DNA of 64,000 bases from Hymenobacter sp. YIM 151858-1 (GCF_025979705.1 NZ_CP110136.1:3410001-3474000), one strand, 5' to 3'; counted from the first letter of the stretch, positions 211 to 63,802 are shown. Translations and numbers: made by a program. The notes: generated by a model from the sequence alone, not told the origin.

Positions 211-485
211 GGAAAATGCCGCCGGAAGAAGTCGGCCCGAAAAAAAAGAGCGCCGCGGCTCGCGCCGGAAAAAGCCCGACCCGAAACCGGGGCGCCAGCG
301 AAGGAAAGCCCGCCGCAGGTTCGGCTTCGCAAAAGGAACCCTGCCGCAGCTCGTGCGAAAACCCCGGCTCACCTAGGCGGCCGCGCCCCCGGCCCACACC
401 AGCTGCCCGGCCACCTAGGGCCGTGGGCAAATCATTTGGGCGGCGGTTTTGCGTATACAGCCACTCATTGCTGCCGCACCGCCCT

Positions 486-977
486 ATGCCGTTCGATTAC
501 ACCCTCGACTTTCGCCACGTCGATTTCCGCGCCCACCCCGAGCTGTACCGCGTGGGCAAGGGTGAGCAGGGCGTTTTGCTCGTGGAGCCCTATAAGAGCG
601 AGATCCTGCCCTTCTGGCGCTTTCGTACACCGGCGGTAGCCCGCGAGTCGTCGGAAGCGATTTACGAGCTGTTTCTGGCGTATTTGGGCAAAGCCGATTT
701 CGTGGGGGCCGACATGGCCCGGAAGTTTCTGCAGATGGGCTTTACCCGAGCCCGCCGCTACGCCAACCACCGCGGCGGCAAAAAGTACGACGGCCCCGTG
801 CCCGACGATAAAAAAGGCCAAAGCGGGGCCCACGGCCGGGCCGAGCTGCCCCGCACCCCCGAAGACCCTGTGAAAGCCGAGGCCGCGGCCATCTTCAAAG
901 CCAAATGGGACGAGGCCAAGCACCACCCCGAATACCTGCGCCAGAAAGCCGAGTTCGAGCAGCGCTACGGAAAATGA
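486..977 (+). CDS. DUF4385 family protein
   Basis: A 163-residue soluble protein that I recognise as DUF4385, a family of unknown function found in bacteria and phages. The start is set at the ATG giving MPFDYTLDF because the family begins with this segment. The reading frame stays open upstream to about 216, but that part is a low-complexity Arg/Pro/Ala translation and lies in the candidate origin region. Visible family features are the aromatic start FDYTLDFR, a basic central segment RRYANHRGGKKYDG (about residues 95-108), and a charged C-terminal helix rich in Lys and Glu. Two CCTAGG copies (372 and 414) lie upstream. It is monocistronic, and nothing shows its biochemical role. Confidence 0.75.
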   Translation: MPFDYTLDFRHVDFRAHPELYRVGKGEQGVLLVEPYKSEILPFWRFRTPAVARESSEAIYELFLAYLGKADFVGADMARKFLQMGFTRARRYANHRGGKKYDGPVPDDKKGQSGAHGRAELPRTPEDPVKAEAAAIFKAKWDEAKHHPEYLRQKAEFEQRYGK

Positions 978-1100
978 GTTGTTAGTTGTCAGGTTCGGGT
1001 TGTTAGGTTGTGTATGTTCCGCCTCTCCACGGATGCCGCCAATAATTCACAACCGGCAACTCACCACTATCAACCGACAACTCGCAACTGACAACTGAAC
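978..1100. repeat. Imperfect inverted repeat of low-complexity GTTG/CAAC arms
   Basis: The left arm (about 976-1012) repeats units such as AGTTGTTAGTTGTCAG. The right arm (about 1048-1100) is roughly its reverse complement, with units such as CAACTGACAACTGAAC. The transcript could fold into a long imperfect hairpin downstream of the DUF4385 gene. Two more intergenic spaces in the window (43.5 and 49.3 kb) have the same architecture with different word content. No protein is encoded here. Confidence 0.6.
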
Positions 1101-1151
1101 CCAACACCTACCTTTACCCCACTACCAACCCTTCAAACCTCCCTCCGCGAT

Positions 1152-1631
1152 ATGAATACGCTCCAACCCCGCAGCACCGAGGAAAACGAAATCGTGTTGG
1201 GCCAAGGCATGGGCCCGCTGAAGTTTGGCGCCAGCATGGACGAAGTGCGCGCCCTGATGGGTGAGCCCGAAGAAATCGAAGAGTCGGAAGACGACGACGA
1301 GTTTGAACACCAGGCCTGGAACTACCTCGAAGAAGGATACTCGCTGTACTTCGACCGCGAAGACGACTACCGCCTCTCCTGCATCGAAACCGACCACCCC
1401 GGCATGCGCCTCTACGGCGAGCCCATCCACAGCAAGTCGCTCGAGCACGTGCAGGAGCTGATGCGCCGCCACGGCCACGGTGCCGGCGAAATGGAAAAGG
1501 TGGATACCGGCGAAGTGCGCCTCTCGTACGAGAAGGAAATGATTGACTTATACTTTGATGAAGACGAGCTGCAGTTCGTGAACTTCGGCGTGTTCATCAA
1601 CGACGACCTGGAGGTGCAGTGGCCCGCCTAG
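1152..1631 (+). CDS. Conserved hypothetical acidic protein
   Basis: A 159-residue, strongly acidic soluble protein with no signal peptide or membrane segment. I do not recognise a named domain. An early segment (LGQGMGPLKFGASMDEVRAL, about residues 16-35) resembles the opening of small regulatory or immunity-like proteins in which a glycine-rich strand is followed by a helix. Then comes a run of Glu/Asp (about 39-50) and alternating strands with conserved-looking Tyr and Phe. A Bacteroidota-like -7 element (TACCTTTA, 1109-1116) precedes the ATG. The stop codon TAG is part of a CCTAGGT copy. A DnaA-box-like cluster follows immediately. The coding assignment is secure from length, codon use and the lack of a competing frame; the function is unknown. 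Confidence 0.75.
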   Translation: MNTLQPRSTEENEIVLGQGMGPLKFGASMDEVRALMGEPEEIEESEDDDEFEHQAWNYLEEGYSLYFDREDDYRLSCIETDHPGMRLYGEPIHSKSLEHVQELMRRHGHGAGEMEKVDTGEVRLSYEKEMIDLYFDEDELQFVNFGVFINDDLEVQWPA

Positions 1632-1638
1632 GTGCTAC

Positions 1639-3416: not shown

Positions 3417-4934
3417 ATGAGCAACCCGACGCAGAAACCAACCCTCGAAAATACCCAGCTGAAAGACATTGTTGCCCACGCCAAGGAATACGGCTTCGTG
3501 TTCCCGTCGTCGGAAATCTACGACGGCCTCGCGGCCGTGTACGATTACGGCCCCAACGGCGTGGAGCTCAAGAACAACCTGAAGCGCCTGTGGTGGGAAG
3601 CCATGACGCAGCTCAACCCCAACGTGGTGGGTATTGACGCGGCCATCTTCATGCACCCGCTCACGTGGCACGCCTCGGGCCACGTGGCTGGTTTCAACGA
3701 TCCGCTCATCGACAACCTCGACAGCAAGAAGCGCTACCGCGCCGACGTGCTGGTGGAGGAAAAAGCCGCGCAGTACGAAAACAACGGCGAAGTGGAGCGC
3801 GCGCAAGCGCTGCTGCAGCACCTGGGCCGCCTGCTCACCGACAACGACCTAGGCGGCGTAAAGCAGCTTATCATCGACGAGAAGATTACCTGCCCGGTAT
3901 CGGGTACCGGCAACTGGACCGACGTGCGCCAGTTTAACCTGATGTTCTCGACGCAGGGCTCGGCCGTGGAAAGCGACGCCGCCCAGATTTACCTGCGCCC
4001 CGAAACCGCCCAGGGCATTTTCGTGAACTTCCTGAACGTGCAGAAGTCGGCCCGCATGAAGGTGCCCTTCGGCATTGCGCAAATCGGCAAAGCCTTCCGC
4101 AACGAGATTGTGGCCCGCCAGTTCATCTTCCGGATGCGCGAGTTCGAGCAAATGGAGATGCAGTTCTTCGTGCGCCCTGGCACCGAAATGGAGTGGTACC
4201 AGCAGTGGAAGGAAACCCGCCGCCGCTGGCACGAGGCCCTGGGTTTGCCCGCGGCCAAGCTGCGCTTCCACGACCACGAGAAGCTGGCCCACTACGCCAA
4301 CGCCGCCGTCGATATCGAGTTTGAATTCCCCTTCGGCTTCAAGGAAATCGAGGGCATCCACTCGCGCACCGACTTCGACCTGACCCAGCACCAGGAGCTC
4401 TCGAAGAAAAAGCAGCAGTACTTCGACGCCGACATCAACCCCGAAACCGGCAAGCCCTACGGCAACTACGTGCCCTACGTGGTAGAAACCTCCGTGGGTG
4501 CCGACCGCCTGTTCCTGGCCACGCTCTGCAACGCCTACACCGAGGAAACCCTGACCGAGGGCGAAGGCGAGCAGCAGCAAACCAAGCAGCGCACCTACCT
4601 GAAGCTGCACCCCGCGGTGGCGCCCATCAAGGCGGCCATCTTCCCGCTGGTGCGCAAGGATGGTTTGCCCGAAAAGGCCCAGCAGATTTTCGACGAGCTG
4701 CGCCACGACTTCCGCATCATCATGGAAGAGCGCGACGCCATCGGCAAGCGCTACACCCGCCAGGACCTCATCGGCACGCCGTTCTGCATTGCCGTCGACC
4801 ACCAGACGCTGGAAGACGACACCGTAACCGTGCGCCACCGCGACTCGCGCGAGCAGGTGCGCATGCCCATTGCCGAGCTGCGCCAGTACATTGGCCAGGC
4901 CGTAAGCTTCCGCCGCATTTTCGAGCAGCTGTAA
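3417..4934 (+). CDS. glyS: Glycine--tRNA ligase, dimeric type
   Basis: A 505-residue class II aminoacyl-tRNA synthetase that charges tRNA-Gly. It is the single-chain (alpha2) form of archaea, eukaryotes and many bacteria, not the alpha2beta2 form. Visible features are the start of the catalytic core AKEYGFVFPSSEIYDGL (about residues 21-37), motif 2 around FGIAQIGKAFRNEI (about 218-231), motif 3 around VGADRLFLATL (about 360-370), and a C-terminal anticodon-binding domain from about 400. The length is normal for the family. Upstream is a -7 element so close that the mRNA may lack a leader; the next in-frame ATG is too far in to be a realistic alternative start. A strong terminator follows, so the gene is monocistronic. 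Confidence 0.97.
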   Translation: MSNPTQKPTLENTQLKDIVAHAKEYGFVFPSSEIYDGLAAVYDYGPNGVELKNNLKRLWWEAMTQLNPNVVGIDAAIFMHPLTWHASGHVAGFNDPLIDNLDSKKRYRADVLVEEKAAQYENNGEVERAQALLQHLGRLLTDNDLGGVKQLIIDEKITCPVSGTGNWTDVRQFNLMFSTQGSAVESDAAQIYLRPETAQGIFVNFLNVQKSARMKVPFGIAQIGKAFRNEIVARQFIFRMREFEQMEMQFFVRPGTEMEWYQQWKETRRRWHEALGLPAAKLRFHDHEKLAHYANAAVDIEFEFPFGFKEIEGIHSRTDFDLTQHQELSKKKQQYFDADINPETGKPYGNYVPYVVETSVGADRLFLATLCNAYTEETLTEGEGEQQQTKQRTYLKLHPAVAPIKAAIFPLVRKDGLPEKAQQIFDELRHDFRIIMEERDAIGKRYTRQDLIGTPFCIAVDHQTLEDDTVTVRHRDSREQVRMPIAELRQYIGQAVSFRRIFEQL

Positions 4935-4958
4935 GAAGCCCTAGGTGCTACAGAAAAG

Positions 4959-4995: not shown

Positions 4996-5023
4996 TTCAG
5001 ATGGGTGCTGATGCCGCTGCCAC

Positions 5024-5413
5024 CTAGGGCATGGCGCGCGAGGCGACGCAGCGGAAGCGAGCCTGCCCGGGCCGGAACGTGCTGCCGGCCGGGCAGCTGC
5101 CAATGCTGTAACGATACTGCCCCTCGCTGGGTAGCGAAGCCATAAACATGGGCTGCGCAGCACGGTTGGGTTGCGGGCCTAGGTGCACCTCGGTAAGCCA
5201 CTGCTCGTAGGAGAGCGAGGCCGGGGCGCTACGCCGCAGGTTAAGCAACAGCTTGCCTACGTGCTGCGCCAGCATGTGCTCGAGGGCACCGTGGTAACCC
5301 CCGCCAAAGGATAAGTGGCGGTAGCTAGCGGAAGCGGTAAGCGGTAACGTATCGGATACGGCACCGCGGCGGGGCGCTGCATCCGGAGTAAAATGCCATG
5401 TCATTGTGTGCAT
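5024..5413 (-). CDS. Hypothetical protein
   Basis: A predicted protein of about 129 residues with no domain that I recognise. The start is placed at the ATG giving MHTMTWHFTPDA; a second ATG three codons later (5404) is equally possible. A longer reading to 5695 would overlap the exporter gene and its promoter and is unlikely. The sequence has mixed polarity, without a clear signal peptide or membrane segment. Its C-terminal part (SEGQYRYSIGSCPAG followed by RFRCVASR) contains two Cys and a Gly/Arg-rich pattern that resembles short formylglycine-sulfatase-like endings, but this is only a resemblance. The stop codon TAG is part of a CCTAGG copy, and another copy lies inside (Leu-Gly). It is read opposite to its neighbours. 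Confidence 0.55.
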   Translation of the reverse strand: MHTMTWHFTPDAAPRRGAVSDTLPLTASASYRHLSFGGGYHGALEHMLAQHVGKLLLNLRRSAPASLSYEQWLTEVHLGPQPNRAAQPMFMASLPSEGQYRYSIGSCPAGSTFRPGQARFRCVASRAMP

Positions 5414-5600: not shown

Positions 5601-8063
5601 ATGTGGAGTAAGCTTGCCCTGCTGATTATCAAGAACCGCCGCCTGCTTGTTGGGGTGCTGGCGGTCATCACCGTGTTTATGGCCTGGAAAGCCAAGGACG
5701 TGGAAATGACCTACGACTTTGCCCAGGTCGTATCGCCCGACGACCCGGACATGGTATACTTCCAGGAGTTCAAGAAAACCTTCGGCGAAGACGGCAACGT
5801 GCTGGTGCTGGGCATGCAGGATAGCTCGGTGTACCGCTTGGGCAACTTCAACGAGCTGCGCATGCTTACCGATACCCTCGGTAAGGTAGAAGGCGTGAAC
5901 GGCGTGCTATCGGTAACCAAGCTCATTCAGCTTACCAAGGATACCGCCAACCAGCGCTTTGCCGCCGAACCCATTTTCCGCACGTTTCCGCAAACCCAGA
6001 AGGAGCTCGACTCGCTGATGCAGATCGTGAACCGGCAGGAGTTCTACAAAGGCCAGCTTATCAGCCCCAGCACCGGGGCCACGCTCATGGCCCTTACCAT
6101 GGACCCCAAGTACCTGAACTCGTCGCGGCGGCAGGCCGTGATGCAGGACATTCTGGCCCATGCCGAGCGGTTCACCCAAAAAACCGGCATCAAGCTGCAC
6201 TACGCCGGCCTGCCCTACGTGCGCTCCACGATGACAAGCAAGGTGGCCGGCGAAATGAAGTTTTTCCTGATGCTGGCGGCGCTGGTTACCAGTGCCACGC
6301 TGCTGGTGTTTTTCCGGACGTGGTCGGCGGTGGTGTTTCCGCTACTGATTGTGGGCGTGGCCGTTATCTGGTGCGTGGGCACCATTGTGCTGCTCGGCTA
6401 TAAGATTACGCTGCTTACGGGCTTGATTCCCAGTATCCTGATCGTAATCGGGATACCCAACTGCACGTACCTGCTCTCGCGCTACCACTACGACTACCGC
6501 ATTTCGGGCAACCAGGTGCTGGCCATGGTGCGCGTGGTGCGCAAAATTGGCCTGGTTACGCTGATGAACAACACGGCCACGGCCACGGGCTTTTTCGTGT
6601 TCTGCTTCACCAACATTGCCATTCTGTACCAGTTTGGCTGGGTGGCCACCATCAGCATTTTCGCGGCCTTTTTCATCTCGATCATTCTCATCCCGATCGT
6701 ATTTACCTACCTGCCGCCGCCCACGCCCAAGCAGCTCGAGCACCTCGATGCCAAGCCGCTCACCAAGCTGCTCGAGTTCTTCGACTACCTGGTGCTGGAG
6801 CGCCGTGGGCTGGTGTACGGTACCGCCATTGTGCTGTGCGCCCTAGGTGCCCTGGGGGCCAGCCGGCTGCAGTCGGTGGCGTACATGGTCGATGATCTGC
6901 CCAAAAACTCGTCCGTCAACGCCGACCTCAAGTTCTTCGAGCAGCATTTCAACGGCATTATGCCGCTCGAAATCGTGATTGACACCGGCAAGAAGCGTGG
7001 CATTCTGAAGCTGAAAAACCTCGAGCGCATCGACCGTCTCGAGAACTACCTGCGTACGCAGCCGGTGCTTACCTCGCCCATCAGCATTGTTACCTTCCTG
7101 AAGGCCTCCACCCAGGCCTTCTACAACGGCGACCCGGCGTATTACCGCCTCCCCGACAACTCCGAGCGCAACTTTATCCTGAGCTACCTGGCCCGCTCGC
7201 AGGGCAAGGAGGGCTCGGGCATGGACAACAAGCTGCTGCGCTCCTTTGCCGACTCCACGGGCCAGAAGGCACGCATTTCCCTCAAGATTGCCGACATCGG
7301 TTCGCGCAACCTCGATACGCTGCTGCTCAACAAGATCGAGCCCAAAATCAAGGAAATCTTCAACGGTACGGGCATGGAGGTGAAGCTAACCGGCACCACC
7401 ATCCTGTTCACCAAAGGCAACGAGTACATCATCGGCACGCTGCGCAACAGCCTTATCCACGCGTTTGGCCTGGTGGGGCTTATCGTGCTGGTGCTGTTCC
7501 GCTCCATCCGCTCGGTGTTCTTCACGCTGCTGCCCAACTTCGTTACGCTGCTGCTCACGGCCGGCCTCATGGGCTACTTCGGCATTGCCCTGAAGCCCGC
7601 CACGGCCCTGATTTTCTGCATCGCCCTAGGTATCGACGGCGACAACTCCATTCACCTGCTGGCCAAGTTCCGGCAGGAAATGGCCACCAACGGCCGCCGC
7701 GTGCGGGCCGCCATCAGCACCACGCTCTCGGAGGCCGGCACCAGCATGATTTACACCAGCATCGTGCTGTTTGTGGGCTTTAGCATCTTCGCGTTCAGTG
7801 AGTTTGGCGGTACCAAGGCCCTGGGGCTGCTGATGTCGGCCTCGTTGCTGATTACCAACTTCTCGAACCTGATTTTGCTGCCCGCGCTGCTGGTAACCTT
7901 CGAGCACGGCAAGGACGAAACCATCGACCGCGCCCTGATTCAGCACTACGACGACCAGTACCACGAGGAGGACGACGACCTGGAGCTGAACCTCGATAAG
8001 ATGACCGTGCAGCCGCGCCTGCCGCACGGCTCGCCCGCCGAACGCGGCCCTGCCACCACCTAG
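5601..8063 (+). CDS. MMPL/RND-family exporter
   Basis: An 820-residue inner-membrane protein of the RND superfamily, MMPL branch, which moves lipids, hopanoids or other hydrophobic molecules out of the membrane using the proton gradient. The layout is duplicated: one membrane span near the N-terminus (about residues 8-28), a periplasmic domain (about 30-205), five or six spans (about 215-375) with a sterol-sensing-like pattern, then a second span near 405-425, a second periplasmic domain, and a final block of spans (about 610-770) containing LGIDGDNSIHLLAKFR, whose acidic residues fit the proton-relay position. The C-terminal tail is acidic and cytoplasmic. No membrane-fusion or outer-membrane partner is adjacent, as expected for stand-alone MMPL proteins. 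It ends in a TAG within CCTAGG. The substrate is unknown. Confidence 0.88.
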   Translation: MWSKLALLIIKNRRLLVGVLAVITVFMAWKAKDVEMTYDFAQVVSPDDPDMVYFQEFKKTFGEDGNVLVLGMQDSSVYRLGNFNELRMLTDTLGKVEGVNGVLSVTKLIQLTKDTANQRFAAEPIFRTFPQTQKELDSLMQIVNRQEFYKGQLISPSTGATLMALTMDPKYLNSSRRQAVMQDILAHAERFTQKTGIKLHYAGLPYVRSTMTSKVAGEMKFFLMLAALVTSATLLVFFRTWSAVVFPLLIVGVAVIWCVGTIVLLGYKITLLTGLIPSILIVIGIPNCTYLLSRYHYDYRISGNQVLAMVRVVRKIGLVTLMNNTATATGFFVFCFTNIAILYQFGWVATISIFAAFFISIILIPIVFTYLPPPTPKQLEHLDAKPLTKLLEFFDYLVLERRGLVYGTAIVLCALGALGASRLQSVAYMVDDLPKNSSVNADLKFFEQHFNGIMPLEIVIDTGKKRGILKLKNLERIDRLENYLRTQPVLTSPISIVTFLKASTQAFYNGDPAYYRLPDNSERNFILSYLARSQGKEGSGMDNKLLRSFADSTGQKARISLKIADIGSRNLDTLLLNKIEPKIKEIFNGTGMEVKLTGTTILFTKGNEYIIGTLRNSLIHAFGLVGLIVLVLFRSIRSVFFTLLPNFVTLLLTAGLMGYFGIALKPATALIFCIALGIDGDNSIHLLAKFRQEMATNGRRVRAAISTTLSEAGTSMIYTSIVLFVGFSIFAFSEFGGTKALGLLMSASLLITNFSNLILLPALLVTFEHGKDETIDRALIQHYDDQYHEEDDDLELNLDKMTVQPRLPHGSPAERGPATT

Positions 8064-8212
8064 GCGCGCAGCCGCCTGTGCCTGAGCCTTTTTGCTTTCT
8101 CCTTTGTTTGCTTTCGATAACCGACTTTCCTAGCCCAACCCAGAGCTAAAAAACCAGCGCCGATAGCTGCCCTTAAGCGCAGAGCCGCCTAGGTGCTGAG
8201 GCCTTCTGACCG

Positions 8213-11200: not shown

Positions 11201-11617
11201 AAGGCTGGTCAGCTGATGGTAGAGGTTGAGGCTCAGGAGGTAACGCTTTCGCCGGAAGACGTGGAAATCCGCACCGAAGACCTGCCCGGCTGGCTGGTAG
11301 CCACCGACGGCCCGCTGACAGTTGCCCTCGACGTAACCCTGACCGACGAGCTGCGGCACGAAGGCGTAGCCCGCGAGCTGGTGAACCGTTTGCAGAATCT
11401 GCGCAAGGATTCGGGCCTCGAAGTGCAGGACAAAATTCGGGTGACCCTAGGTGCCGACCAGCCCGAACTGGTACAGGCCGTGCAGGAATTCGGCGATTAT
11501 ATCCGCACCGAAACCCAAGCCCTGTCGCTGGATCTGGCGAATGGTCTGACGGACGGCGCCGTGCTCGAATTTGACGAGTACAGCGTGCCGGTGCGCCTGG
11601 AAGTCGTAAAAAGCTGA
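8213..11617 (+). CDS. ileS: Isoleucine--tRNA ligase
   Basis: A 1134-residue class I synthetase that charges tRNA-Ile. The HIGH motif appears as GIHH within PPSANGAPGIHHVMA (about residues 48-62), and KMSKR at about residue 670 is the second ATP-binding motif. The large insertion between them (about 200-420) is the CP1 editing domain that hydrolyses misacylated Val-tRNA. The C-terminal anticodon-binding domain follows. The length and the absence of the C-terminal zinc-finger cysteines of the E. coli type fit the eukaryote-like IleRS class (type 2, often mupirocin-tolerant) common in Bacteroidota; the resistance is inference. The ATG follows a CCTAGGT copy by about 20 bases. The gene heads a pair with lspA, the usual order in this phylum, though the dksA-like gene often lying between them is at 27.7 kb here. 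Confidence 0.97.
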   Translation: MRYPEYKQPFDYAQVGTDILRWWQENGIFEKSVSTREGRETFVFYEGPPSANGAPGIHHVMARTVKDIFCRYQTLKGFQVNRKGGWDTHGLPIELQVEKELGITKEDIGKKISIEDYNQRCRETVMRFKHQWDDLTEKMGYWVDLNDPYITFEPEYIESCWALLKKLYDKGLLYKGYTIQPYSPAAGTGLSSHELNQPGTYRDVKDTTIVAEFEVKRNEQSEKLFALADGLPVFVLAWTTTPWTLPANTGLAVGKNIRYAVVRTFNPYTREPQVVVLAKDLLSRHFSEKGAEAWLDEYKPGDKVLPWRQVGEFSGAELVGIGYQRLFGREVGFPAFEGEERAFRVIPGDFVTTEDGTGIVHISPTFGADDFRVAQQNDIPALLVVGDDGKPGPIVDRTGRYVPQMGEFGGRWVKNYDGHDDSAADYRTLDVDISVRLKERGRAFKVEKYEHTYPHCWRTDKPVLYYPLDSWFIKTTAVKDRLIELNKTINWKPESTGTGRFGNWLENLVDWNLSRSRYWGTPLPIWRTQDGTEELCIGSVEELKREIDKAVAAEIMTHNPYANGEKVDLHRPYVDDIFLVSPSGQPMYREPDLIDVWFDSGAMPYAQWHYPLENEGQFKKNFPADFIAEGVDQTRGWFFTLHALGVMLEDSVAFKNVIANGLVLDKNGNKMSKRLGNAIDPFETIGKFGPDATRWYMIANAQPWDNLKFDLAGITEVQRRFFGTLFNTYSFYALYANLDEFQTREFDRVPLTELSELDRWILSKLQSLILEVQGHFDNYDPTKAARAIQDFVTDQLSNWYVRLSRRRFWKGELTTDKQAAFETLQQCLVVVSQLMSPIAPFFAEWLYKNMTDGMRAEAVEKATPLRYESVHLTELVEAEESLIDKALEERMDLAQRISSLTHSLRKKSVLKVRQPLQRILVPVLTETTREQVGKVEDLICAEVNVKHVEFLDDTSGVLVKSVKPNFKRLGQQFGPRLKAVAARIQQMTSEEIGQLEKAGQLMVEVEAQEVTLSPEDVEIRTEDLPGWLVATDGPLTVALDVTLTDELRHEGVARELVNRLQNLRKDSGLEVQDKIRVTLGADQPELVQAVQEFGDYIRTETQALSLDLANGLTDGAVLEFDEYSVPVRLEVVKS

Positions 11618-12481: not shown

Positions 12482-12525
12482 GTACTCCGGATTATGTTAA
12501 GTAGCTGAGCTTAGCCACTTTTTTG

Positions 12526-42055: not shown

Positions 42056-42084
42056 CCCGAAGCACCTAGGGCTTACCCACAGAG

Positions 42085-45164: not shown

Positions 45165-45226
45165 TTGCGCCTGCCCTAGGTACTCCGGCCGTTGCAGCAG
45201 GCGGGCAGGGCTGCTACCTTGTCCCG

Positions 45227-46115: not shown

Positions 46116-46140
46116 GGCTTAGGGCAGTACCCTAGGTCGG

Positions 46141-47425: not shown

Positions 47426-47584
47426 GATGGGTCGCGCCTAGGTTGGTGTATGCCGCGCCCGCCCCGCTGCACTTTTGGCGCAAAACAAGGCGGCCGCGTA
47501 GCTTCTCACCTACGTAGCGGCCCCGGTATCGGATGCGTTCCGGGCCGGCTACTTGCCGCGCCGCCCGGTTGCCAGCCATGCCAC

Positions 47585-49269: not shown

Positions 49270-49480
49270 GTAGGAAGGAAGTCAGGGAGTTTTGGAGTTA
49301 ATGAGTTTAGGAGTTAGCGAGTTTTGAGTTTGGGAGTTGGCGAGTTGTGAAGGTCAGGCTCAGCAACTGAACAACTGAACGGCCGAGGTCCTAGGTCGCC
49401 TGCGCGTTTTGGCCCAAGGGCACCTAGGCAACTCTTCCCCTCACAACTCACCAACTCCTAAACTCCAAAACTCATTAACT
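49270..49480. repeat. Long imperfect inverted repeat of GGAGTT/AACTCC words with two CCTAGG copies in the loop
   Basis: The left arm (about 49280-49355) is a tandem of GGAGTT-type words (GAGTTTTGGAGTTAATGAG and variants). The right arm (about 49438-49480) is their near-complement (CACAACTCACCAACTCC and CTCATTAAC). The loop holds one CCTAGGT (49390) and one ACCTAGG (49423), facing each other as an inverted pair. Nothing is coded here. Confidence 0.7.
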
Positions 49481-49670: not shown

Positions 49671-49727
49671 AACGGTTTTGTTTAACGTACCTAGGGCCAA
49701 CGCCGGGCGGCCGGGCTTAGTGTGCGG

Positions 49728-54393: not shown

Positions 54394-55890
54394 CTAAGCT
54401 CCAGGTTTGGAGTAGTACACACGCAAGCGAATGTTGCTGGCGTCGATGGTGGCCCGGTCGAGGGAAAGCGGCAAACTGGTTTCGTTTCCGCGTAGTTCCC
54501 GCCGCAGCGTTGGCGAAAGAATAAATGCCGCCGGGTAGGGCGTTGCGAGCTGATTGGTTACGTACGTTTGAACGTAGGTTGTAAGCAGGGCTGTGTAGTT
54601 GTTGCTAACACCCGTCGCTGTGTTTTGGCGGGTTAGCTGGGCTTCGAGCCGCTGCCCCTGGGAGTTCACGTTCTCGCCTAGTACAAAGCGCAAAGACTGG
54701 GTCAAGCCGTTATTCGTTTTCAGCACCTGATTACGAGCGTTGGCCTCGTAGAGGTACAAGCTGCTGGGTGCCGGATACACGAGGTTTGAGCCCGCTTTCA
54801 GAGGTACAATCAGCTCGGCGCGGTTGATAATGATGTTTTCGCGCTGTTGCAGGGCTCGAAGCTGCTCCAAGCCTGGAATGACCAGCTTGGTTGACAGGCC
54901 AGTACCATCCTGCGCGTAACTGGTATTATCAAGCAAGTTGGCAGGTACTTCGGCAGCGCTGTTACCGTTAAGCGAACTAAACGGTGCTCCGGCGCTGCTC
55001 AAATCATACCGGAGATTGGTAAAGAACCGTGGATCGGCAACGGCACCCGTGCTATTCACATAATTGAAGCGGTACGCCTTCTGTTCGGTAGGCGAGGTGC
55101 CCGATGTGGTATTAACCCGGTAGTAAACCAGAACCTGCGAAATTCCCGAGCGGTCGAATCCTATAACCGTACGCTCGGTGCCAGCGCCCGGAAGAATGGC
55201 CAGGCCCCGCCAAACGCGCTGCAGCTCCTGCTGCGAAAGCGTTTCGGTGGTGGTGGCCTTCATCAGGTTAAACAGAGCCGTTGCAAAGGCAGTGGGCTGC
55301 GAACCGGAAATCAGGATACGCAACGGCAACTGGATGCTATCGGCCGTGTTGGCTTTGTTGCGGATCGTCCGGTTGAGCGACACCAAGGCATTCTCCACGA
55401 TTGCCTGACCTAGGGCCGGGCGGCTGGTGGAGTTGTAGGTAGTTCGCTCATCCAGCGGCTTGTCCAAGTCGTACAAACTCAGCCGCACAGGCTGGGTAGC
55501 GCTGCCGTACACGCGGTCGAAGCCAGCCGTCAGCACGATGGAATCGAGCTGCGGGTTTTGCCCGGCAAATTTGGAGGGCAGCGGGTTGTTATTCGGGTCG
55601 AAGCTGGGCTGTACTTCCAAATAGGCGCGAGCCTCCAGCGTACCGCGCGTGTTAGCGTCGGTGAGCCGGCCTACCAAGAAGCGCGTGCGCCGCTGGGTGA
55701 GTAACGAATCCTGCCAGATGGTAGATGCAGTTACGGGGAAGTCCTCGTACTTCGTATCGACGGAGGCAGAGCCCGGCACATCCAGGCCTAGCTCGTTGGC
55801 ATCTTCGCACGAACCGAGCGAAAACAAAGCGGACGCCAACAGCAAAGCCGTCGACGTCCGCAGGGTCAATAGCCTAGTTGGCCAATTCAT
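54394..55890 (-). CDS. DUF4270 lipoprotein
   Basis: A 498-residue lipoprotein of a family restricted to Bacteroidota. The signal ends in the lipobox LFSLGSCED with Cys at about residue 28. The mature protein is beta-rich with repeated strands and segments such as DSIVLTAGFDRVYGSATQPV and RAELIVPLKAGSNLVYPAPS. The function is unknown; neighbours in other genomes suggest a link to surface glycan or glycogen metabolism. It overlaps the glycogen synthase domain gene by 17 bases, so the two are translationally coupled. Six or more Asn/Tyr-rich loops suggest a surface-exposed sandwich fold. Confidence 0.88.
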   Translation of the reverse strand: MNWPTRLLTLRTSTALLLASALFSLGSCEDANELGLDVPGSASVDTKYEDFPVTASTIWQDSLLTQRRTRFLVGRLTDANTRGTLEARAYLEVQPSFDPNNNPLPSKFAGQNPQLDSIVLTAGFDRVYGSATQPVRLSLYDLDKPLDERTTYNSTSRPALGQAIVENALVSLNRTIRNKANTADSIQLPLRILISGSQPTAFATALFNLMKATTTETLSQQELQRVWRGLAILPGAGTERTVIGFDRSGISQVLVYYRVNTTSGTSPTEQKAYRFNYVNSTGAVADPRFFTNLRYDLSSAGAPFSSLNGNSAAEVPANLLDNTSYAQDGTGLSTKLVIPGLEQLRALQQRENIIINRAELIVPLKAGSNLVYPAPSSLYLYEANARNQVLKTNNGLTQSLRFVLGENVNSQGQRLEAQLTRQNTATGVSNNYTALLTTYVQTYVTNQLATPYPAAFILSPTLRRELRGNETSLPLSLDRATIDASNIRLRVYYSKPGA

Positions 55891-56686
55891 TATAAAGGGC
55901 GTAGTATGAGCTAAGCAGGTTCTCGTCGTCGGCCACCCGGCCTAGGCTGTGGCGCTGCGAGTATTCCTGGAAAAGAGCGTTCAGATTTTCGCTGAAATCC
56001 TCGTCGGAACGCACCACCGAGTCGGCGTACTCCATGCCAATCTTCACAAAACCAGTGAAATCGGCCGATTGCAGGGCCGCCAGCATCGAGTCGTCGATGT
56101 CAAGCATCTTGGCCTTCTCGATGATGTCGCCTTCGAATTTGTAGTCGAACTCGTTGTTGTAAACGGTAAAGATCGACTTCGCATCTTTGAAGATGGGGTC
56201 TTTCTTGTAAGTCGTCTTCAGGTACAACGGCATCAGGCCCGTCATCCAGTCGTTGCAGTGCACAATGTCCGGAGCCCAGCCAAGTTTCTTAACGGTTTCC
56301 AGCACGCCCTTGCAGAAGAAGATAGCCCGCTCGTCGTTATCGGCGTGGAACTGGTCGTTCTTGTCGCGCAGTACCGATTTGCGGTGGAAGTAATCTTCGT
56401 TGTCGATGAAGTATACTTGTAGCTTCGCGTTCGGAATGGAGGCCACTTTGATAATAAGCGGCTTTTCATCTTCGCCCACGGCAATGTTGATGCCCGAGAG
56501 CCGAACCACCTCGTGCAGGCGGTTTTTGCGTTCGTTGATGATGCCGAAGCGGGGTACGAAAATGCGGATTTCCATCCCCATCTCCTGCATGCCTTGCGGC
56601 AGGCGCCGCAGGAACTCCGCTACCCGGGTCGTTTGCAAAAACGGATTGATTTCCGTGGCAGCATAGAGAATTCTCAGCTTCGACAT
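55874..56686 (-). CDS. Glycogen/starch synthase N-terminal domain protein
   Basis: A 270-residue protein homologous only to the N-terminal GT5 domain of glycogen synthase GlgA. The family start is recognisable: LRILYAATEINPFLQTTRVA (about residues 4-23; the usual KTGGLADV loop is altered to QTTRVAEFL). PDIVHCNDWMTGLMPLYLK (about 138-156) matches the HxxDW motif. The C-terminal nucleotide-binding half (another 200 residues) is missing. This short form next to panC and DUF4270 is conserved in Bacteroidota, so it is not a local truncation. ADP-glucose:glucan transfer is doubtful for it alone; a regulatory or partner role is possible. Its promoter overlaps that of panC. Confidence 0.85.
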   Translation of the reverse strand: MSKLRILYAATEINPFLQTTRVAEFLRRLPQGMQEMGMEIRIFVPRFGIINERKNRLHEVVRLSGINIAVGEDEKPLIIKVASIPNAKLQVYFIDNEDYFHRKSVLRDKNDQFHADNDERAIFFCKGVLETVKKLGWAPDIVHCNDWMTGLMPLYLKTTYKKDPIFKDAKSIFTVYNNEFDYKFEGDIIEKAKMLDIDDSMLAALQSADFTGFVKIGMEYADSVVRSDEDFSENLNALFQEYSQRHSLGRVADDENLLSSYYALYNELAN

Positions 56687-56802: not shown

Positions 56803-57657
56803 ATGGAGATACTTGAAACCGCCGCGGCGTTGCAAGCCCTTACCGAAAAATGGCGCCGCGAGGGCCGTAGCATCGGCTTTGTGCCCACCATGGGGGCCCT
56901 GCACGAAGGTCATTTGCAATTAGTACGCACTGCTGCAGCCCAAAACGACGAGGTGGTGGTGAGCATATTTGTGAATCCCACGCAGTTCAACAACAGCGAA
57001 GATTTCAAATTATATCCCCGGGTGCCCGAATCAGACGCCGAAATGCTGCGCGGAACGGGCTGTACAGCTTTATTTAGCCCCGCGGTAGCGGATATGTACC
57101 CGCAGCCTACGGTGCTGCAGTTTAATTTTGGCGCCCTCGAGAACGTAATGGAAGGGGCGCACCGGCCCGGACATTTCAACGGGGTGGCTACCGTGGTGAG
57201 CAAGTTGTTTCACCTGGGGCGGCCGCACCGCGCCTATTTCGGGCAGAAGGATTGGCAGCAAGTAGCGGTTGTGCGCCAGTTGGTGCAGGATTTAAGCTTC
57301 GATCTGGACCTGGTGAGCTGCCCAACCATTCGCGAAGCCGACGGGCTGGCCATGTCGTCGCGCAACCGCAGGCTTACGCCCGAGGCCCGGGCCGTGGCGC
57401 CGCGCCTGTACGAAGCTCTGCAGCTGGCGGCCGAACAACTTCAGCAAACCAGGCGACCGGCGGTGGCGCAGCAAGCGGCTATCGGCTTCCTAGGTGCCCA
57501 TCCGGAAATTGAGGTGGAGTACCTGGAGGTGGCCGACGCCCGTTCGCTGCAGCCACTACCGGCAACCGCGGCGCCCGGGCAAGAAGCGGTGATTTGCCTG
57601 GCAGTGTGGCTTGGCGGCGTACGGCTGATTGACAACGTGGTACTCTCGCTGACCTAG
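56803..57657 (+). CDS. panC: Pantothenate synthetase
   Basis: A 284-residue enzyme that joins pantoate and beta-alanine, with ATP, to pantothenate. Typical motifs are [17 protein letters not shown] (about residues 26-42, HxGH-like ATP site), [11 protein letters not shown] (about 62-72), [19 protein letters not shown] (about 145-163) and the KMSKS-like block [13 protein letters not shown] (about 184-196). The ATG giving [10 protein letters not shown] is chosen because the frame upstream would run into the promoter. It is followed by panD 70 bases later; the two supply the pathway to coaX at 30 kb. The stop codon is in a CCTAGG. Confidence 0.96.
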
Positions 57658-57692
57658 GACGGGCACCCGCAGCGGAGCGGACCTTATTTGCG

Positions 57693-59227: not shown

Positions 59228-59705
59228 AATCCTGACCTGCGAGCAGTTGCCCGCCGTGCTTAGCGGCTGGCGCCAGCAAGGCAAGCGCATCGTATTCACC
59301 AACGGCTGTTTCGATCTGCTGCACCTAGGGCATGTCGATTACCTCGAAAAAGCCCGCGCCCTAGGTGACGTGCTGGTGGTGGGCCTGAACACCGATGCCT
59401 CGGTAAGCTGCCTGAAGCCCGGGCGCCCGCTGCAAGACGAAATGTCACGCGCGCGGGTGCTGGCCTCGCTTTTGTTTGTAGATGCCGTGGTGCTGTTCGG
59501 CGAGCCTACCCCGCTGGAGCTTATCCACCTCGTGCGGCCCGATGTGCTGGTAAAGGGCGACGACTACGCCATCAGCGGAATCGTGGGCCACGAGTTTGTG
59601 TTAAGCAACGGGGGGCAGGTGCAAACCGTACCTCTGGTGCCTGGTTACAGCACAACCCGCATAGTGGAGCGCATGCGCCAGGCCGAGGGCAGTACCGGCG
59701 CTTAG
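59211..59705 (+). CDS. rfaE2: D-glycero-beta-D-manno-heptose 1-phosphate adenylyltransferase
   Basis: A 164-residue nucleotidyltransferase that activates heptose-1-phosphate with ATP for lipopolysaccharide core synthesis; it corresponds to the C-terminal half of HldE. The core motif is FTNGCFDLLHLGHVDYLEKA (about residues 29-48), with the HxGH ATP site. Then come VGLNTDASVSCLKPGRPL and the late motif VLVKGDDYAISGIVGHEFVL. Two CCTAGG copies lie in this core (Leu-Gly). The gene for the kinase half (rfaE1) is not adjacent. It overlaps the flippase-like gene, consistent with a glycolipid operon. The last 10 residues are variable. Confidence 0.93.
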   Translation: MPTKDKILTCEQLPAVLSGWRQQGKRIVFTNGCFDLLHLGHVDYLEKARALGDVLVVGLNTDASVSCLKPGRPLQDEMSRARVLASLLFVDAVVLFGEPTPLELIHLVRPDVLVKGDDYAISGIVGHEFVLSNGGQVQTVPLVPGYSTTRIVERMRQAEGSTGA

Positions 59706-60537: not shown

Positions 60538-60734
60538 GCTGCCTAGGTGTTCAGCAAGGCAAACAGTAGTTAAACCTAACGCCCGTTAGCCATGTTATGC
60601 AAGCAGCTTATAACTTAGCGTGCGCATCGGTGCGTTTAATGCTGCTTATCGGTTGATAACCACTCACCAGCTTGTAATTTCGCGGCGCCTTGCCGGACCC
60701 CGGTAGGTGCCAAGCCTCTTTTTCCCATTCCCAC

Positions 60735-61874
60735 ATGAACTTTCAGCTCACCGAAGAACAACTCGCCGTGCAAGCCGCGGCCCGCGAATTTGCCCAGAAC
60801 GAACTGTGGGCCGGCGTAATCGAGCGCGACGAACACCAGAAATTCCCCGCCGAGCAAATCAAAAAGATGGGCGAGCTGGGCTTTATGGGCATGATGGTGA
60901 GCCCCGAGTACGGCGGCGGCGGCATGGATACCGTGTCGTACGTGCTGGCCATGGAAGAAATTTCCAAGGTCGATGCCTCGTGTTCGGTTATCATGTCGGT
61001 AAACAACTCGCTGGTTTGCTGGGGCCTCGAGAAGTACGGCACCGAGGAGCAAAAGCAGAAATACCTGACCAAGCTGGCTACCGGCGAAATCATCGGCGCA
61101 TTCTGCTTATCAGAGCCCGAGGCTGGTTCCGACGCCACCATGCAGCGCACCACCGCCGTAGATATGGGCGACCATTACCTGCTGAACGGCACCAAAAACT
61201 GGATTACCAACGGCTCGTCGGCCTCGGTATACCTGGTAATTGCCCAAACTAACCCCGAGCTGCGCCACCGCGGCATCAACGCCCTGATTGTGGAGCGCGA
61301 TACTCCGGGTTTTGTAATTGGTCCGAAGGAAAACAAGCTGGGCATCCGCGGCTCCGATACGCACTCGCTCATGTTCACCGACGTGAAAGTGCCCAAGGAG
61401 AACCGCATCGGCGAAGACGGCTTCGGCTTCAAGTTCGCCATGCAGGTGCTGGCCGGTGGCCGCATTGGCATTGCTGCGCAAGCCCTAGGTATTGCTTCGG
61501 GTTCGTACGAACTGGCCGTTAAGTACTCAAAAGAGCGCAAGGCATTCGGTGTGCCGATTTCGCAGCACCAGGCCATCCAGTTCAAGCTGGCCGATATGGC
61601 TACCAACATCGATGCGGCCCGTTTGCTGTGCCTGCAAGCCGCTCACGACAAGGACGCCCACCTCGACTACGCCAAGTCGGGGGCTATGGCAAAGCTCTTC
61701 GCTTCGAAGGTTGCCATGGAAACTTCGGTGGAGGCCGTACAGGTGCACGGGGGCTACGGATTCGTGAAAGAATTCCACGTAGAGCGCCTGATGCGCGACG
61801 CCAAAATCACCCAGATTTATGAGGGAACTTCTGAGATTCAGAAAATTGTAATCTCGCGGGAAATCCTGAAGTAA
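60735..61874 (+). CDS. Acyl-CoA dehydrogenase (short-chain/butyryl type)
   Basis: A 379-residue FAD enzyme that oxidises acyl-CoA to trans-2-enoyl-CoA in fatty-acid or amino-acid catabolism, passing electrons to ETF. Typical signatures are GAFCLSEPEAGSDATMQRTT (about residues 119-138), then VQVHGGYGFVKEFHVERLMR (about 335-354). The catalytic Glu lies in QIYEGTSEIQK (about residue 362). The length fits short-chain acyl-CoA dehydrogenases. The ATG giving MNFQLTEEQL is the family start. A -7-like TAATTTCG (60676) lies in the 257-base upstream space. It stands alone; the 3-hydroxyacyl-CoA-dehydrogenase-domain gene at 50.2 kb may serve the same pathway. Confidence 0.95.
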   Translation: MNFQLTEEQLAVQAAAREFAQNELWAGVIERDEHQKFPAEQIKKMGELGFMGMMVSPEYGGGGMDTVSYVLAMEEISKVDASCSVIMSVNNSLVCWGLEKYGTEEQKQKYLTKLATGEIIGAFCLSEPEAGSDATMQRTTAVDMGDHYLLNGTKNWITNGSSASVYLVIAQTNPELRHRGINALIVERDTPGFVIGPKENKLGIRGSDTHSLMFTDVKVPKENRIGEDGFGFKFAMQVLAGGRIGIAAQALGIASGSYELAVKYSKERKAFGVPISQHQAIQFKLADMATNIDAARLLCLQAAHDKDAHLDYAKSGAMAKLFASKVAMETSVEAVQVHGGYGFVKEFHVERLMRDAKITQIYEGTSEIQKIVISREILK

Positions 61875-61946: not shown

Positions 61947-62033
61947 TGAATTTTTATATCTTATTTTGCATTGTCTAAACAGCGGCGAAGCCGTAGTCCG
62001 CTGGTAGTCAGCCAACCACTCCCGCGTCCGAAT

Positions 62034-62957
62034 ATGGAAGATTATAATAAAGTCATAGAATCGCTCGGTGTGCGCTACATCAAGGCTAAGAACCTGGTGT
62101 TGCAGCAGCCCTTCACCGTGCGCAACTCCTACGATGTAGGCAACAACCTCATCTTGTTGCACAAGGGGCGTATTTCGTTTGGCGATGAGGACACCGTGGT
62201 GGAGGAAGGCGACATGCTCTTCATTCCGGGCGGCCGGGCTACCCGCGTGAGCTATGGCGAGGCAGGCGGCAAAACCATCACCAACGACGACCTGATCAGC
62301 AACAAGGACAAGTTCTTCCATTCCAACACCGACCTCGACCTAATTTCGGACGCCGAGGAAAGCCACTCGTTCGTATCGTTCGAGGCCAAGGTGTTCGACT
62401 CGGTGAACTTCTTCGCGTCGCTCGACGTGCCGGCCTTCCTCATCAGCGGCAACTCGAAGCTGGCCAACCTGGTGATTAAGGTGGTGGAAGAAAGCTTGCA
62501 GGAGCTACCGGGCCGCGAGCGTCTGATTTCGATTTATACCGAGAACATCGTTGTTGAAATCATACGCTACATCTTGAAGAACAAGATGTTTGTGGAGCAA
62601 CTGGCCACCAACAGCACGTACTTCAAGGACCCACGCCTGATCGACCTGTTCAACTATATCAAGGAAAACCTAGGCGGCGACTTGTCGAACAAGGTGCTGT
62701 CGGGCGTGGCCAACGTGTCGGAGGATTACGTGGGCCAGTACTTCAAGATGCTGACGGGCATTAACCCGCAGGATTACATCGAGTACCAGCGCATGGAGCG
62801 CGCCGTGTTCCTGCTGCGCACTACCAAAAAGAGCATCCGCGACATCGGCAAGGAAGTGGGTTACAAAGACACCGCGTACTTCTGCCGCCGCTTCAAGATG
62901 ATGTTCGGCATTCCGGCTGGCAAGATGCGCCGCCGCGAGTCGGCCATGAACATCTAA
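62034..62957 (+). CDS. AraC-family transcriptional regulator
   Basis: A 307-residue regulator. The N-terminal half (about residues 1-160) is a beta-rich, cupin-like sensor part (TVRNSYDVGNNLILLHKGRI, FGDEDTVVEEGDMLFIPGGR). The C-terminal 100 residues are the AraC double helix-turn-helix: a first HTH around LSGVANVSEDYVGQYFKMLT (about 222-241) and the second in KKSIRDIGKEVGYKDTAYFC (about 266-285) followed by RRFKMMFG. The ATG giving MEDYNKVIES is chosen, since a TATATCTTATTTTG promoter-like tract (61954-61968) ends about 65 bases upstream. The effector is unknown. The upstream acyl-CoA dehydrogenase gene could be a target, but no evidence shows it. Confidence 0.92.
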   Translation: MEDYNKVIESLGVRYIKAKNLVLQQPFTVRNSYDVGNNLILLHKGRISFGDEDTVVEEGDMLFIPGGRATRVSYGEAGGKTITNDDLISNKDKFFHSNTDLDLISDAEESHSFVSFEAKVFDSVNFFASLDVPAFLISGNSKLANLVIKVVEESLQELPGRERLISIYTENIVVEIIRYILKNKMFVEQLATNSTYFKDPRLIDLFNYIKENLGGDLSNKVLSGVANVSEDYVGQYFKMLTGINPQDYIEYQRMERAVFLLRTTKKSIRDIGKEVGYKDTAYFCRRFKMMFGIPAGKMRRRESAMNI

Positions 62958-62964
62958 CCTAGGG

Positions 62965-63022
62965 CGCCCCAAAGCAAAAGCCCGCAGCACCACCTGGTGC
63001 TGCGGGCTTTTGCTTTGGGGCG
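62965..63022. terminator. 26-bp perfect bidirectional terminator
   Basis: Left arm 62965-62990 and right arm 62997-63022 are exact reverse complements with a six-base loop. The stem includes AAAGCAAAAG and CTTTTGCTTT near the ends, giving T-rich tails in both directions. It lies between the convergent AraC gene and GGGP synthase-like gene, and is the longest perfect stem that I found. Confidence 0.92.
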
Positions 63023-63028
63023 TTGTGC

Positions 63029-63802
63029 TTAGTTAAGCGCAGCGTCGAGGACGGTGTTGAAGCCGTGCACCACGCGCGACACCTCGCCCAGGAACTCGGG
63101 GTCTTTCTCGATCTGGTTGCCGATTACGATAACGTCGGCCCCGGCCGCTAGGGCGGCATGGGCTTTTTCGCCGGTGTTGATGCCGCCGCCCACAATAACG
63201 GGCAGCTCGACGGCCTGGCGCACGGCCCCAATCATGGCGGGCGACACGGGGTGCATAGCCCCACTGCCGCCATCGAGGTAAATCAGACCTAGGCCCAGCT
63301 GCTCGCCCGCCATAGCAGTACAGGCCGCAATGGTGGGCTTGTCGTGGGGCAGGGGCGTGGTGCCGCTCATGTAGCTGGCCGTGGTCTGCCGACCCGAGTC
63401 GACGAGCATATAACCTGTTGGCAGAATCTCGAGCTGGCTGGCGCGCAGCAGCGGTGCTGCCACCACGTGTTGGCCAATCAGGAAATCGGGGTTACGGCCC
63501 GAAATCAGTGAGAGCAGCAGGATGGCATCGGCTTGCGCATCAATGTGCAGGCTGTTGCTCGGAAACAGCACTACCGGCACCGGCGAGTGGGCTTTGAGCA
63601 AGCGAATAAGGGCAGCCTGGTGCTGCGAAGTCACCAGGCTGCCCCCTACGAAGAAGTAATCAACGGAATGCGTGTTGCTTAGCGCCAGAATACGCCGCGT
63701 ACCGGCCTCGTCGAGGTCGTCGGGGTCGAGCAGCACGGCCAGAGACTTCTGGCCGCGGGAGCAGCGGTGGCGCAGGGCATCATGCAGTGGGGTCAGGCGC
63801 AT
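63029..63802 (-). CDS. Geranylgeranylglyceryl/heptaprenylglyceryl phosphate synthase-like protein
   Basis: A 257-residue TIM-barrel protein of the GGGP synthase/PcrB family, which joins a polyprenyl diphosphate to glycerol-1-phosphate. Typical segments are SLAVLLDPDDLDE (about residues 18-30), YFFVGGSLVTSQHQ (about 47-60), LPTGYMLVDSG, LIYLDGGSGAMHPVSP (about 170-185), and the phosphate loop PVIVGGGINTGEKAHAALAA (about 200-219) followed by GADVIVIGNQIEK. Bacteroidota enzymes of this group are reported to make geranylgeranylglyceryl phosphate; the role in this organism is open. The ATG giving MRLTPLHDAL is chosen. It overlaps the partial gene to its right by 23 bases. Confidence 0.88.
   Translation of the reverse strand: MRLTPLHDALRHRCSRGQKSLAVLLDPDDLDEAGTRRILALSNTHSVDYFFVGGSLVTSQHQAALIRLLKAHSPVPVVLFPSNSLHIDAQADAILLLSLISGRNPDFLIGQHVVAAPLLRASQLEILPTGYMLVDSGRQTTASYMSGTTPLPHDKPTIAACTAMAGEQLGLGLIYLDGGSGAMHPVSPAMIGAVRQAVELPVIVGGGINTGEKAHAALAAGADVIVIGNQIEKDPEFLGEVSRVVHGFNTVLDAALN

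Follow-up and report, generated by a model that had tools for sequence, protein, structure and literature searches.

A genome-wide octamer in Hymenobacter, its dialects in relatives and a possible role in self-recognition

A short word, CCTAGGT, is repeated through a 64,000-nucleotide stretch of the chromosome of Hymenobacter sp. YIM 151858-1 (G000:C1:3410001-3474000, hereafter the window), which belongs to a 4.62-Mb genome, G000, in three contigs. We define the word of this lineage as the octamer [CGT]CCTAGGT, chiefly SCCTAGGT. Its enrichment is solid and genome-wide. Within the genus the octamer is patchy, and it was gained by several substitutions at synonymous and spacer positions and then conserved. 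The phenomenon is wider than one genome: other words of this kind, here called dialects, occur in related species. On balance, and with modest confidence, we favour the view that the octamer serves as a self-recognition tag, spread over the whole genome, of which this lineage has its own dialect. Such a tag would act in the manner of a DNA uptake sequence (DUS), independently of a type IV pilus.

Enrichment and placement of the octamer

The window contains 79 copies of CCTAGG, the first at 372 and the last at 63288-63293, which make up 67% of its 118 CTAG sites. Base composition predicts about 20 (0.3^4 x 0.2^2 x 64000) and an order-2 Markov model about 9, or 18.5 against 158 seen when both strands are counted. 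A reading of the window from its sequence only (the sequence-only reading) had given about 79 copies against roughly 20 expected, and CCTAGG as most of the CTAG sites, and these counts bear it out. The same is true of the near-universal extension to CCTAGGT, found in 75 of the 79 copies (74 on one strand and one on both), while a further extension to GCCCTAGGTGC, described as frequent, was overstated and occurs in only 4+2 = 6 of 79. On a single strand, 74 of the 79 copies read [CGT]CCTAGGT, the preceding base being C, G or T. The five exceptions are the non-canonical octamers CCCTAGGG at 10140-10147 and 44089-44096 and GCCTAGGC at 40156-40163, inside a cluster of copies, and 55940-55947, together with ACCTAGGT at 37877-37884, the window's only copy with T on both strands. 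Preferences in the flanks are weak (G 0.49 at -2, G 0.46 at +7, C 0.40 at +8). The core CCTAGG is palindromic while the octamer is not, 74 of the 79 copies being one-sided; other dialects are mixed in this respect.

Over the whole genome [CGT]CCTAGGT occurs 4,884 times (2,455 forward, 2,429 reverse) against 24 for the reversed control word, and CCCTAGGT 3,106 times against 2, so that the enrichment holds in the rest of the genome. Further counts come from a 424-kb chromosome set, consisting of the window and 18 stretches of 20 kb. Both strands of this set hold 472 CCTAGGT against 31.5 expected from an order-2 Markov model, and the symmetric ACCTAGGT accounts for only 14 of the 472. One-mismatch neighbours of CCTAGGT exceed their order-2 expectation no more than 1.4-fold, position 7 excepted, where they overlap with the motif on the reverse strand; as the neighbours are hardly raised, what is read is the exact word. 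Among octamers with counts of at least 25, ACCTAGGG is the most over-represented at orders 2, 3 and 4 (42.7-, 29.3- and 4.0-fold) and is not one of the eight listed at order 5. An order-5 model, proposed in the sequence-only reading as a check that might dissolve the signal, does reproduce the number of 7-mers in the window (76.8 expected, 76 seen, both strands), though only because the enriched hexamers are its input. The other check proposed there, codon shuffling, leaves the word unexplained: synonymous shuffles of the window's genes give 1.3 +/- 1.0 copies (maximum 5, 200 shuffles) against 43 coding copies seen, and shuffles of the 424 kb give 10.6 +/- 3.2 (maximum 21, 100 shuffles) against 262.

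A simple codon-based caller found 326 genes in the 424 kb, which is 75.5% coding. Of the octamer copies, 262 fall in genes and 171 outside them, and another 25 span a gene end. The coding density is 0.82/kb, while spacers of 10-600 bp, counting copies that reach at most 5 bases into a gene, carry 2.64/kb when co-directional, 2.90/kb when convergent and 1.76/kb when divergent. Comparison of coordinates shows that 24 of the 25 gene-end copies provide the gene's TAG stop. Within genes, 246 of the 262 copies are read in the frame xNC-CTA-GGN and the other 16 as CCT-AGG, a bias that would suit codon usage, or the protein sequence Ala-Leu-Gly, as the cause of the word. This explanation is refuted, and we give it practically no chance, since spacer density exceeds coding density and synonymous shuffles lose the word. 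Apparent codon-context words also behave otherwise: TCGCGCA and CATTGCC, enriched in the octamer-poor congener G197 and rejected as dialects for this reason, lie mostly in one frame and are raised just 1.5 to 2.6-fold.

Spacing along the chromosome is near Poisson, with a coefficient of variation of 0.92 and about one copy per 0.84-0.85 kb (prophage sample L069 left out). Close pairs, less than 80 bp apart, are mostly inverted in G000 (21 of 26, p = 0.002). A consistent strand polarity was not found in the 18 samples and the window, although the origin and terminus are not mapped.

Gain, conservation and turnover among relatives

Eight genomes of the genus divide into three rich in the octamer (G000 with 4,884 copies, G200 with 5,065 and G201 with 5,339) and five poor ones with 27 to 77. 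Window sites could be aligned to the poor congeners in 37 cases for G197, 33 for G203, 36 for G202, 28 for G199 and 11 for G198, and the octamer at these sites was identical in 0, 1, 1, 0 and 0 of them respectively. When each of the 44 sites that could be aligned to any poor congener was compared with the closest of them, the octamer differed at no position in 2 sites, at 1 in 9, at 2 in 17, at 3 in 10 and at 4-5 in 6. The differences gather at motif positions 2, 5 and 8, which are wobble bases, and are of mixed types; an example of a change from poor to rich is GCG CTG GGC to GCC CTA GGT. Because the changes are of different types and fall mainly at three wobble positions, a single recurrent mutation is not their source.

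Between the rich congeners the position of the word is conserved, as the sequence-only reading had suggested checking. Octamers are identical at 39 of 59 sites in G200 and 34 of 58 in G201, though the DNA is only 87-88% identical. CTA codons are unchanged in G200 in 36 of 39 cases inside the motif and 17 of 48 outside (Fisher 4e-8), and in G201 in 34 of 37 inside and 13 of 46 outside (Fisher 2e-9). Motif bases are 92.5% (G200) and 88.9% (G201) identical, compared with 81-85% in the flanks. Several substitutions per site relative to the poor congeners, together with conservation among the rich, imply that the word was built stepwise and then held.

A functionless origin, through lineage-specific mutational bias or as the footprint of a transposon, would suit the patchy distribution among species. 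It is nevertheless strongly disfavoured, and we regard it as very improbable: the changes required combine transitions with transversions at wobble positions that lie apart within the octamer, one-off neighbour words are hardly raised, and the word is conserved once it has arisen.

Some DNA of G000 is almost free of the word. The smaller contigs hold 4 octamer copies in 158.2 kb (C2) and 2 in 100 kb (C3, 101 kb), a chromosomal region of about 80 kb at ~1.06-1.14 Mb holds 4, and another of about 25 kb at 1.16-1.185 Mb, which carries a phage-type integrase match, holds none; both regions have sharp edges. The ~1.06-1.14 Mb region (samples L217, L218, L069 and L219) is a prophage with matches to terminase large subunit, portal and virion proteins in PHROGs, and most of the long open reading frames tried from it had no Pfam match. 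From the near-empty smaller contigs, the prophage and the integrase island, it seems that recently arrived DNA lacks the octamer.

Dialects were sought in a family survey of 204 genomes, an order survey for which 390 genomes were drawn and a survey of 80 named ComEC loci. In the family, [CGT]CCTAGGT exceeds 2,000 copies in eight genomes (G000, G200, G201, G023, G029, G081, G097 and G116), with 5,421 in G097, and CCTACCC exceeds 2,000 in 14, with a maximum of 6,650 in G091; the two sets do not overlap. G065 has 7,530 CCTAGG, which in a 20-kb sample are chiefly CCCTAGG(G), and TAGGCCA/CTAGGCCA is the word of G034, G036, G122 and G130. Three sampled genomes of genus g6 have their own TATA-core words, AACTATAG, AGGTATAG and AAGTATAA (samples L257 from G175, with about 3 words per kb, L114 and L258 from G193, and L256 from G167). 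In the order survey the top CCTAGG counts all lie within this family; beyond it the excess was milder, counts against the reversed control being 807/62 in G216, 414/17 in G232, 1349/610 in G244 and 1138/546 in G343. GGATCC, a control word, is near-absent in many genomes of genus g4 (1 in 6.0 Mb in G016, 0 in G114), a scarcity that suggests restriction avoidance.

Dialects at the named loci come from single samples of 5-22 kb, so weak words are missed and "none" means none seen; words that looked CRISPR-like or tandem (those in L152, L160, L198 and L200 are examples) were excluded by eye. Named loci and genome handles overlap (G197 and H. busanensis, for example, have ComEC rows at zero distance), and their counts are not summed. 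SCCTAGGT was found in Solirubrum puertoriconensis and Hymenobacter sp. BT559, CCCTAGGG in H. polaris, ACCTAGG(T) in H. cavernae and H. crusticola, CTAGGCCA in H. wooponensis and H. fodinae, CCTACCC in UV11 and H. sediminis and more weakly in H. profundi, H. citatus, H. glacieicola and H. latericoloratus, GGCTAGCC in CA2-7, and GCCCCCCA in H. roseosalivarius, BT188 and H. qilianensis. In full, the word of the H. roseosalivarius clade is a 13-mer, RAAWW-GCCCCCCA-G (50 sites, 3 loci), with A/T at 86% at -5 and 96-100% at -4 to -1, and it forms a terminator-like inverted pair once in each of two species. Palindromic dialects (ACCTAGGT, CCCTAGGG and GGCTAGCC) stand beside non-palindromic ones (CCTACCC, CTAGGCCA and GCCCCCCA). 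Codon shuffles of nine dialect words gave 4.5- to 18-fold excesses, most of the words occurring in several frames and in spacers; the weaker cases are AAGTATA, with just 2 spacer copies, and GGCTAGCC, which is based on 14 sites.

A ComEC tree (FastTree, 83 rows, row L156 left out) requires at least ten changes of dialect, with SCCTAGGT and CCTACCC each in separate clades; four of its CCTACCC states come from weaker 22-kb signals (L126, L127, L137 and L159, 0.77-0.99 per kb). Within one clade, when word sites of BT559, UV11, CA2-7 and H. polaris were aligned across species, 2 of 178 comparisons were identical, 49 of the 178 being with H14-R3, which has no known word. Among the variants listed, H. 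polaris and CA2-7 show one another's word at a few shared sites.

Another explanation is that an abundant protein of the nucleoid, of segregation or of recombination binds the word, which would be selected as its site at about one per kb. Chromosome-wide spread, conserved positions and a preference for spacers would all suit such a site. Chi and the FtsK-orienting polar sequences (KOPS; GGGNAGGG) are over-represented non-palindromic octamers, and GGGTAGGG, which is complementary to one of the dialects, is similar to KOPS. Chi or KOPS would show strand polarity, however, whereas the octamer in G000 has none (totals 2455 and 2429), polarity was not found along the chromosome samples, and palindromic dialects carry no polar signal. 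Identity of GGGTAGGG with KOPS was rejected, the resemblance coming without fixed polarity: a strand bias of CCTACCC in three operon samples (L107, L108 and L110, discussed below) follows gene direction, and its strand counts in L047 and L051 are just 17/11 and 20/11. A core chromosome function should not lack its word in five of eight genomes of a genus or switch at least ten times in one tree, and the near-emptiness of the two smaller contigs and the prophage region also speaks against a chromosome-protein site. We therefore consider this role unlikely.

Possible readers of the word

Uptake or self-recognition fits best among the roles listed in the sequence-only reading, given the dialects, the conservation, the absence from mobile DNA, the inverted pairs and the dialect with an A/T tract. 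Of the others, replication orientation is not supported, as no consistent strand polarity was found in the 18 samples and the window, and a methylation target is weakened, as set out below. In the mechanism we propose, environmental DNA would be bound through the exact word by a receptor that lies at the cell surface or in the periplasm and is not a type IV pilus, and fragments that bear the word would be imported preferentially. Imported word-bearing alleles would then replace word-less alleles through homologous recombination, and the word would spread by drive and afterwards be held in the native chromosome at a density near one per 0.85 kb. The identification of the reader as an uptake receptor, and of recombination as the driver of the spread, is our inference.

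The likeness in kind to known uptake sequences and to HIP1 of cyanobacteria, which the sequence-only reading had drawn, stands. DUS often occur as inverted pairs, and the Hymenobacter octamer also occurs in close inverted pairs (21 of 26). The uptake signal sequence (USS) of Haemophilus and the Pasteurellaceae is a short core beside an A/T tract, a layout matched by the H. roseosalivarius-clade word with its five-base A/T tract and GCCCCCCA; the other dialects with tabulated flanks, unlike USS, have no A/T tract. Neisserial DUS are reported to be conserved above their surroundings, to have permissive core positions and to be missing from recently acquired genes (Treangen 2008, PMC2397512), and Neisseriaceae dialects of 10-12 bp with a common CTG core have 943 to 5,918 copies (Frye 2013, PMC3630211). 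The words described here are similar in their thousands of exact copies, species specificity, conservation, permissive positions and absence from acquired DNA (PMC3630211, PMC2397512). They differ in being 7-8 bp long (13 in one clade), in having no core common to all and in being palindromic in some species. DUS are moreover read by the type IV pilus through ComP, whereas no pilus ATPase above the cut-off was found in the 52 panel genomes, a difference that applies to USS as well. Because this pilus feature was looked for and not found, we do not class the words as DUS or USS.

Several observations weigh against an uptake role. To our knowledge, DUS and USS are not palindromic, unlike the dialects ACCTAGGT, CCCTAGGG and GGCTAGCC. 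The pilus ATPase family PF00437 is above cut-off in 0 of 52 panel genomes and gives sub-cut-off matches in 2, while 14 of 14 control genomes matched, 13 of them above cut-off. ComEC is present in all 54 genomes examined, equally so in motif-poor ones, so this competence gene does not track the motif. In the literature searched, which left most subscription journals and all preprints outside its scope, transformation of these species is not reported; nor did that search find such a word described in Hymenobacter or its phylum. Nor is there a simple difference between core and accessory DNA within the window: segments unalignable to poor congeners hold 17 copies over 7.4 kb and 7 copies over 4.2 kb, and alignable segments are poorer, with 50 in 52.3 kb. 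The higher density in unalignable segments is presumably due to many of them being spacers. No receptor was found, and the candidate domain DUF5689 does not sort with the motif (78 of 204 genomes); it was undetected in G000 and G065 and is present in motif-poor genomes. In Riemerella columbina, finally, the preference for own DNA has no clear motif beyond A-rich words in that report (PMC7965970).

DUF5689 is a domain of one Riemerella transformation protein. Riemerella, a genus of the Bacteroidota, counts in favour of uptake, as does the presence of ComEC in all 54 genomes: ComEC, DprA, ComF and RecA are reported to be essential for transformation of R. anatipestifer, as are four further proteins that the authors describe as unlike known uptake machinery (PMC8459023), and at equal amounts only own DNA competes transformation of R. 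columbina (PMC7965970). As a receptor in Hymenobacteraceae we rejected DUF5689, because the proteins inspected either sit in a nutrient-uptake operon or are a secreted nuclease, and neither class sorts cleanly. Strong matches occur with CTAG-type words (G023, G029, G034, G081, G097 and G116), with CCTACCC (G012, G027 and G080) and in g4 genomes with no known word (G017, G055, G059, G101, G117, G118, G123 and G126), and are absent from G065 and genus g1. In the copies fetched, the strong g4 matches lie in a conserved SusC-SusD-DUF5689 operon (L100-L112, L115-L117) of an extracytoplasmic function (ECF) sigma factor, FecR, SusC, SusD, the DUF5689 protein, a metallophosphatase and a glycerophosphodiester phosphodiesterase, a Pfam content taken from the G081 copy only, some copies being incomplete. 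This operon probably serves phosphate-ester scavenging. The second class, in Hymenobacter, is a nuclease with oligonucleotide-binding (OB) fold and phospholipase D (PLD) domains and a Por secretion tail, encoded beside mutS2 (Pfam matches in L241 and L242; loci L098:10034-11023 of G200, L099 of G201 and L240-L243). In motif-rich G200 the mutS2-side protein has 329 aa and no nuclease or tail match, and the frame in G201 is similarly short.

A different kind of reader would be a resident DNA methyltransferase that modifies the word, with a repair bias creating and preserving it, the mechanism that Elhai put forward for the highly iterated palindromes (HIPs) HIP1 and the alternate HIPs. According to Elhai 2015 (PMC4390886), cyanobacterial HIPs are mostly palindromic and have cognate methyltransferases, and alternate HIPs swap between species along with the matching enzymes. 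The CCTAGG core is palindromic, the dialects are likewise short iterated words near one per kb that are replaced between species, and the near-Poisson spacing of about 0.84 kb is close to the density that the HIP model predicts (PMC4390886); scarcity in new mobile DNA would also be expected from such a ratchet. Matches to methyltransferase families do occur, with strong PF07669 (Eco57I-type) matches in G097, G023 and G122 and PF01555 or PF00145 matches in G000, G201, G081, G065 and G023.

None of these families is common to the rich congeners, however. G200, with 5,065 copies, has neither PF01555 nor PF00145, and its PF07669 match, in a frame of 1,204 aa, is below the cut-off; weak PF07669 matches in a long frame occur in both G000 and G200, and similar ones in poor congeners. 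G201 lacks PF00145 and PF07669, and G097, with 5,421 copies, lacks PF01555 and PF00145. Among 26 panel genomes PF01555 is absent from 11, including G200, G097, G023, G029 and G116, and PF00145 from 17, including G200, G201, G081, G097, G065, G029 and G116. The sequence-only reading had proposed looking for a co-occurring methylase; within the three families searched, PF01555, PF00145 and PF07669, no member is common to the rich G000, G200 and G201 and missing in the poor congeners (PF02086, PF05869 and PF02384 were not searched). The words themselves also differ from HIPs, as several dialects are non-palindromic (CCTACCC, CTAGGCCA and GCCCCCCA), one spans 13 bases and includes an A/T tract, and the octamer avoids its symmetric form (ACCTAGGT, 14 of 472). 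A role as methylation target is thereby weakened, and we think it quite unlikely. Vsr endonuclease was rejected as a driver, PF03852 being found in 10 of 52 panel genomes and in G000, not in G200 or G201. In G000 about 10 kb separate a Vsr match from a C5 methyltransferase match (C1:3010308 and 3021030), and neither family is found in G200 or G201.

Returning to uptake, a wider proposition is that Hymenobacteraceae evolved, independently of Neisseriaceae and Pasteurellaceae, an uptake or self-recognition system free of the type IV pilus with about ten dialects, palindromes included. We hold this tentatively, at somewhat short of an even chance. A specificity gene may move between species in such a system, as one genus contains several changes of dialect and the same dialects reappear in clades far apart. 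The uptake sequences known to us come from two proteobacterial families, both with type IV pili. If the proposition is true, uptake sequences would have arisen a third time, in a Bacteroidota dialect system in which no pilus ATPase is detectable, and such a system would point to the outer-membrane step of Bacteroidota transformation. It would also offer many natural replicates, in which a word is gained, lost or switched inside a single genus, for finding a receptor by comparative genomics and for separating drive from selection. Should the reader be a methyltransferase or a chromosome protein instead, HIP-like systems would reach a further phylum, the second, and there comprise many words.

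Individual copies in the window

SCCTAGGT lies on the forward strand at 4939-4946, 5177-5184, 6841-6848, 7624-7631, 8187-8194, 11115-11122, 11445-11452, 12856-12863, 13762-13769, 14942-14949, 15235-15242, 16972-16979, 17768-17775, 18467-18474, 20139-20146, 20819-20826, 21158-21165, 25236-25243, 25380-25387, 26200-26207, 26839-26846, 27167-27174, 30273-30280, 30363-30370, 34283-34290, 35707-35714, 40935-40942, 46130-46137, 47436-47443, 48491-48498, 50563-50570, 51226-51233, 60541-60548 and 61483-61490. Copies on the reverse strand are at 371-378, 413-420, 2153-2160, 3847-3854, 5022-5029, 13291-13298, 31306-31313, 35434-35441, 36019-36026, 42064-42071, 43168-43175, 43471-43478, 47900-47907, 49689-49696, 52319-52326, 55408-55415, 62668-62675 and 63287-63294, and a further one at 62957-62964 reaches one base into a called gene that ends at 62957. 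The variant TCCTAGGT is found forward at 18065-18072, 19925-19932, 21629-21636, 40183-40190 and 57488-57495, and in reverse at 51740-51747.

Five copies supply the TAG stop of a called gene. They are SCCTAGGT at 1626-1633 (forward, gene 1152-1631), 8058-8065 (reverse, gene 5601-8063), 12476-12483 (forward, gene 11843-12481) and 32746-32753 (forward, gene with its end at 32751), and TCCTAGGT at 57652-57659 (reverse, gene with its end at 57657). Inverted pairs are formed by SCCTAGGT at 38069-38076 (forward) with 38113-38120 (reverse), at 40077-40084 (reverse) with 40140-40147 (forward) and at 59323-59330 (reverse) with 59359-59366 (forward). In two further pairs one partner is TCCTAGGT: SCCTAGGT at 45174-45181 (forward) is paired with TCCTAGGT at 45238-45245 (reverse), and TCCTAGGT at 49389-49396 (forward) with SCCTAGGT at 49422-49429 (reverse).

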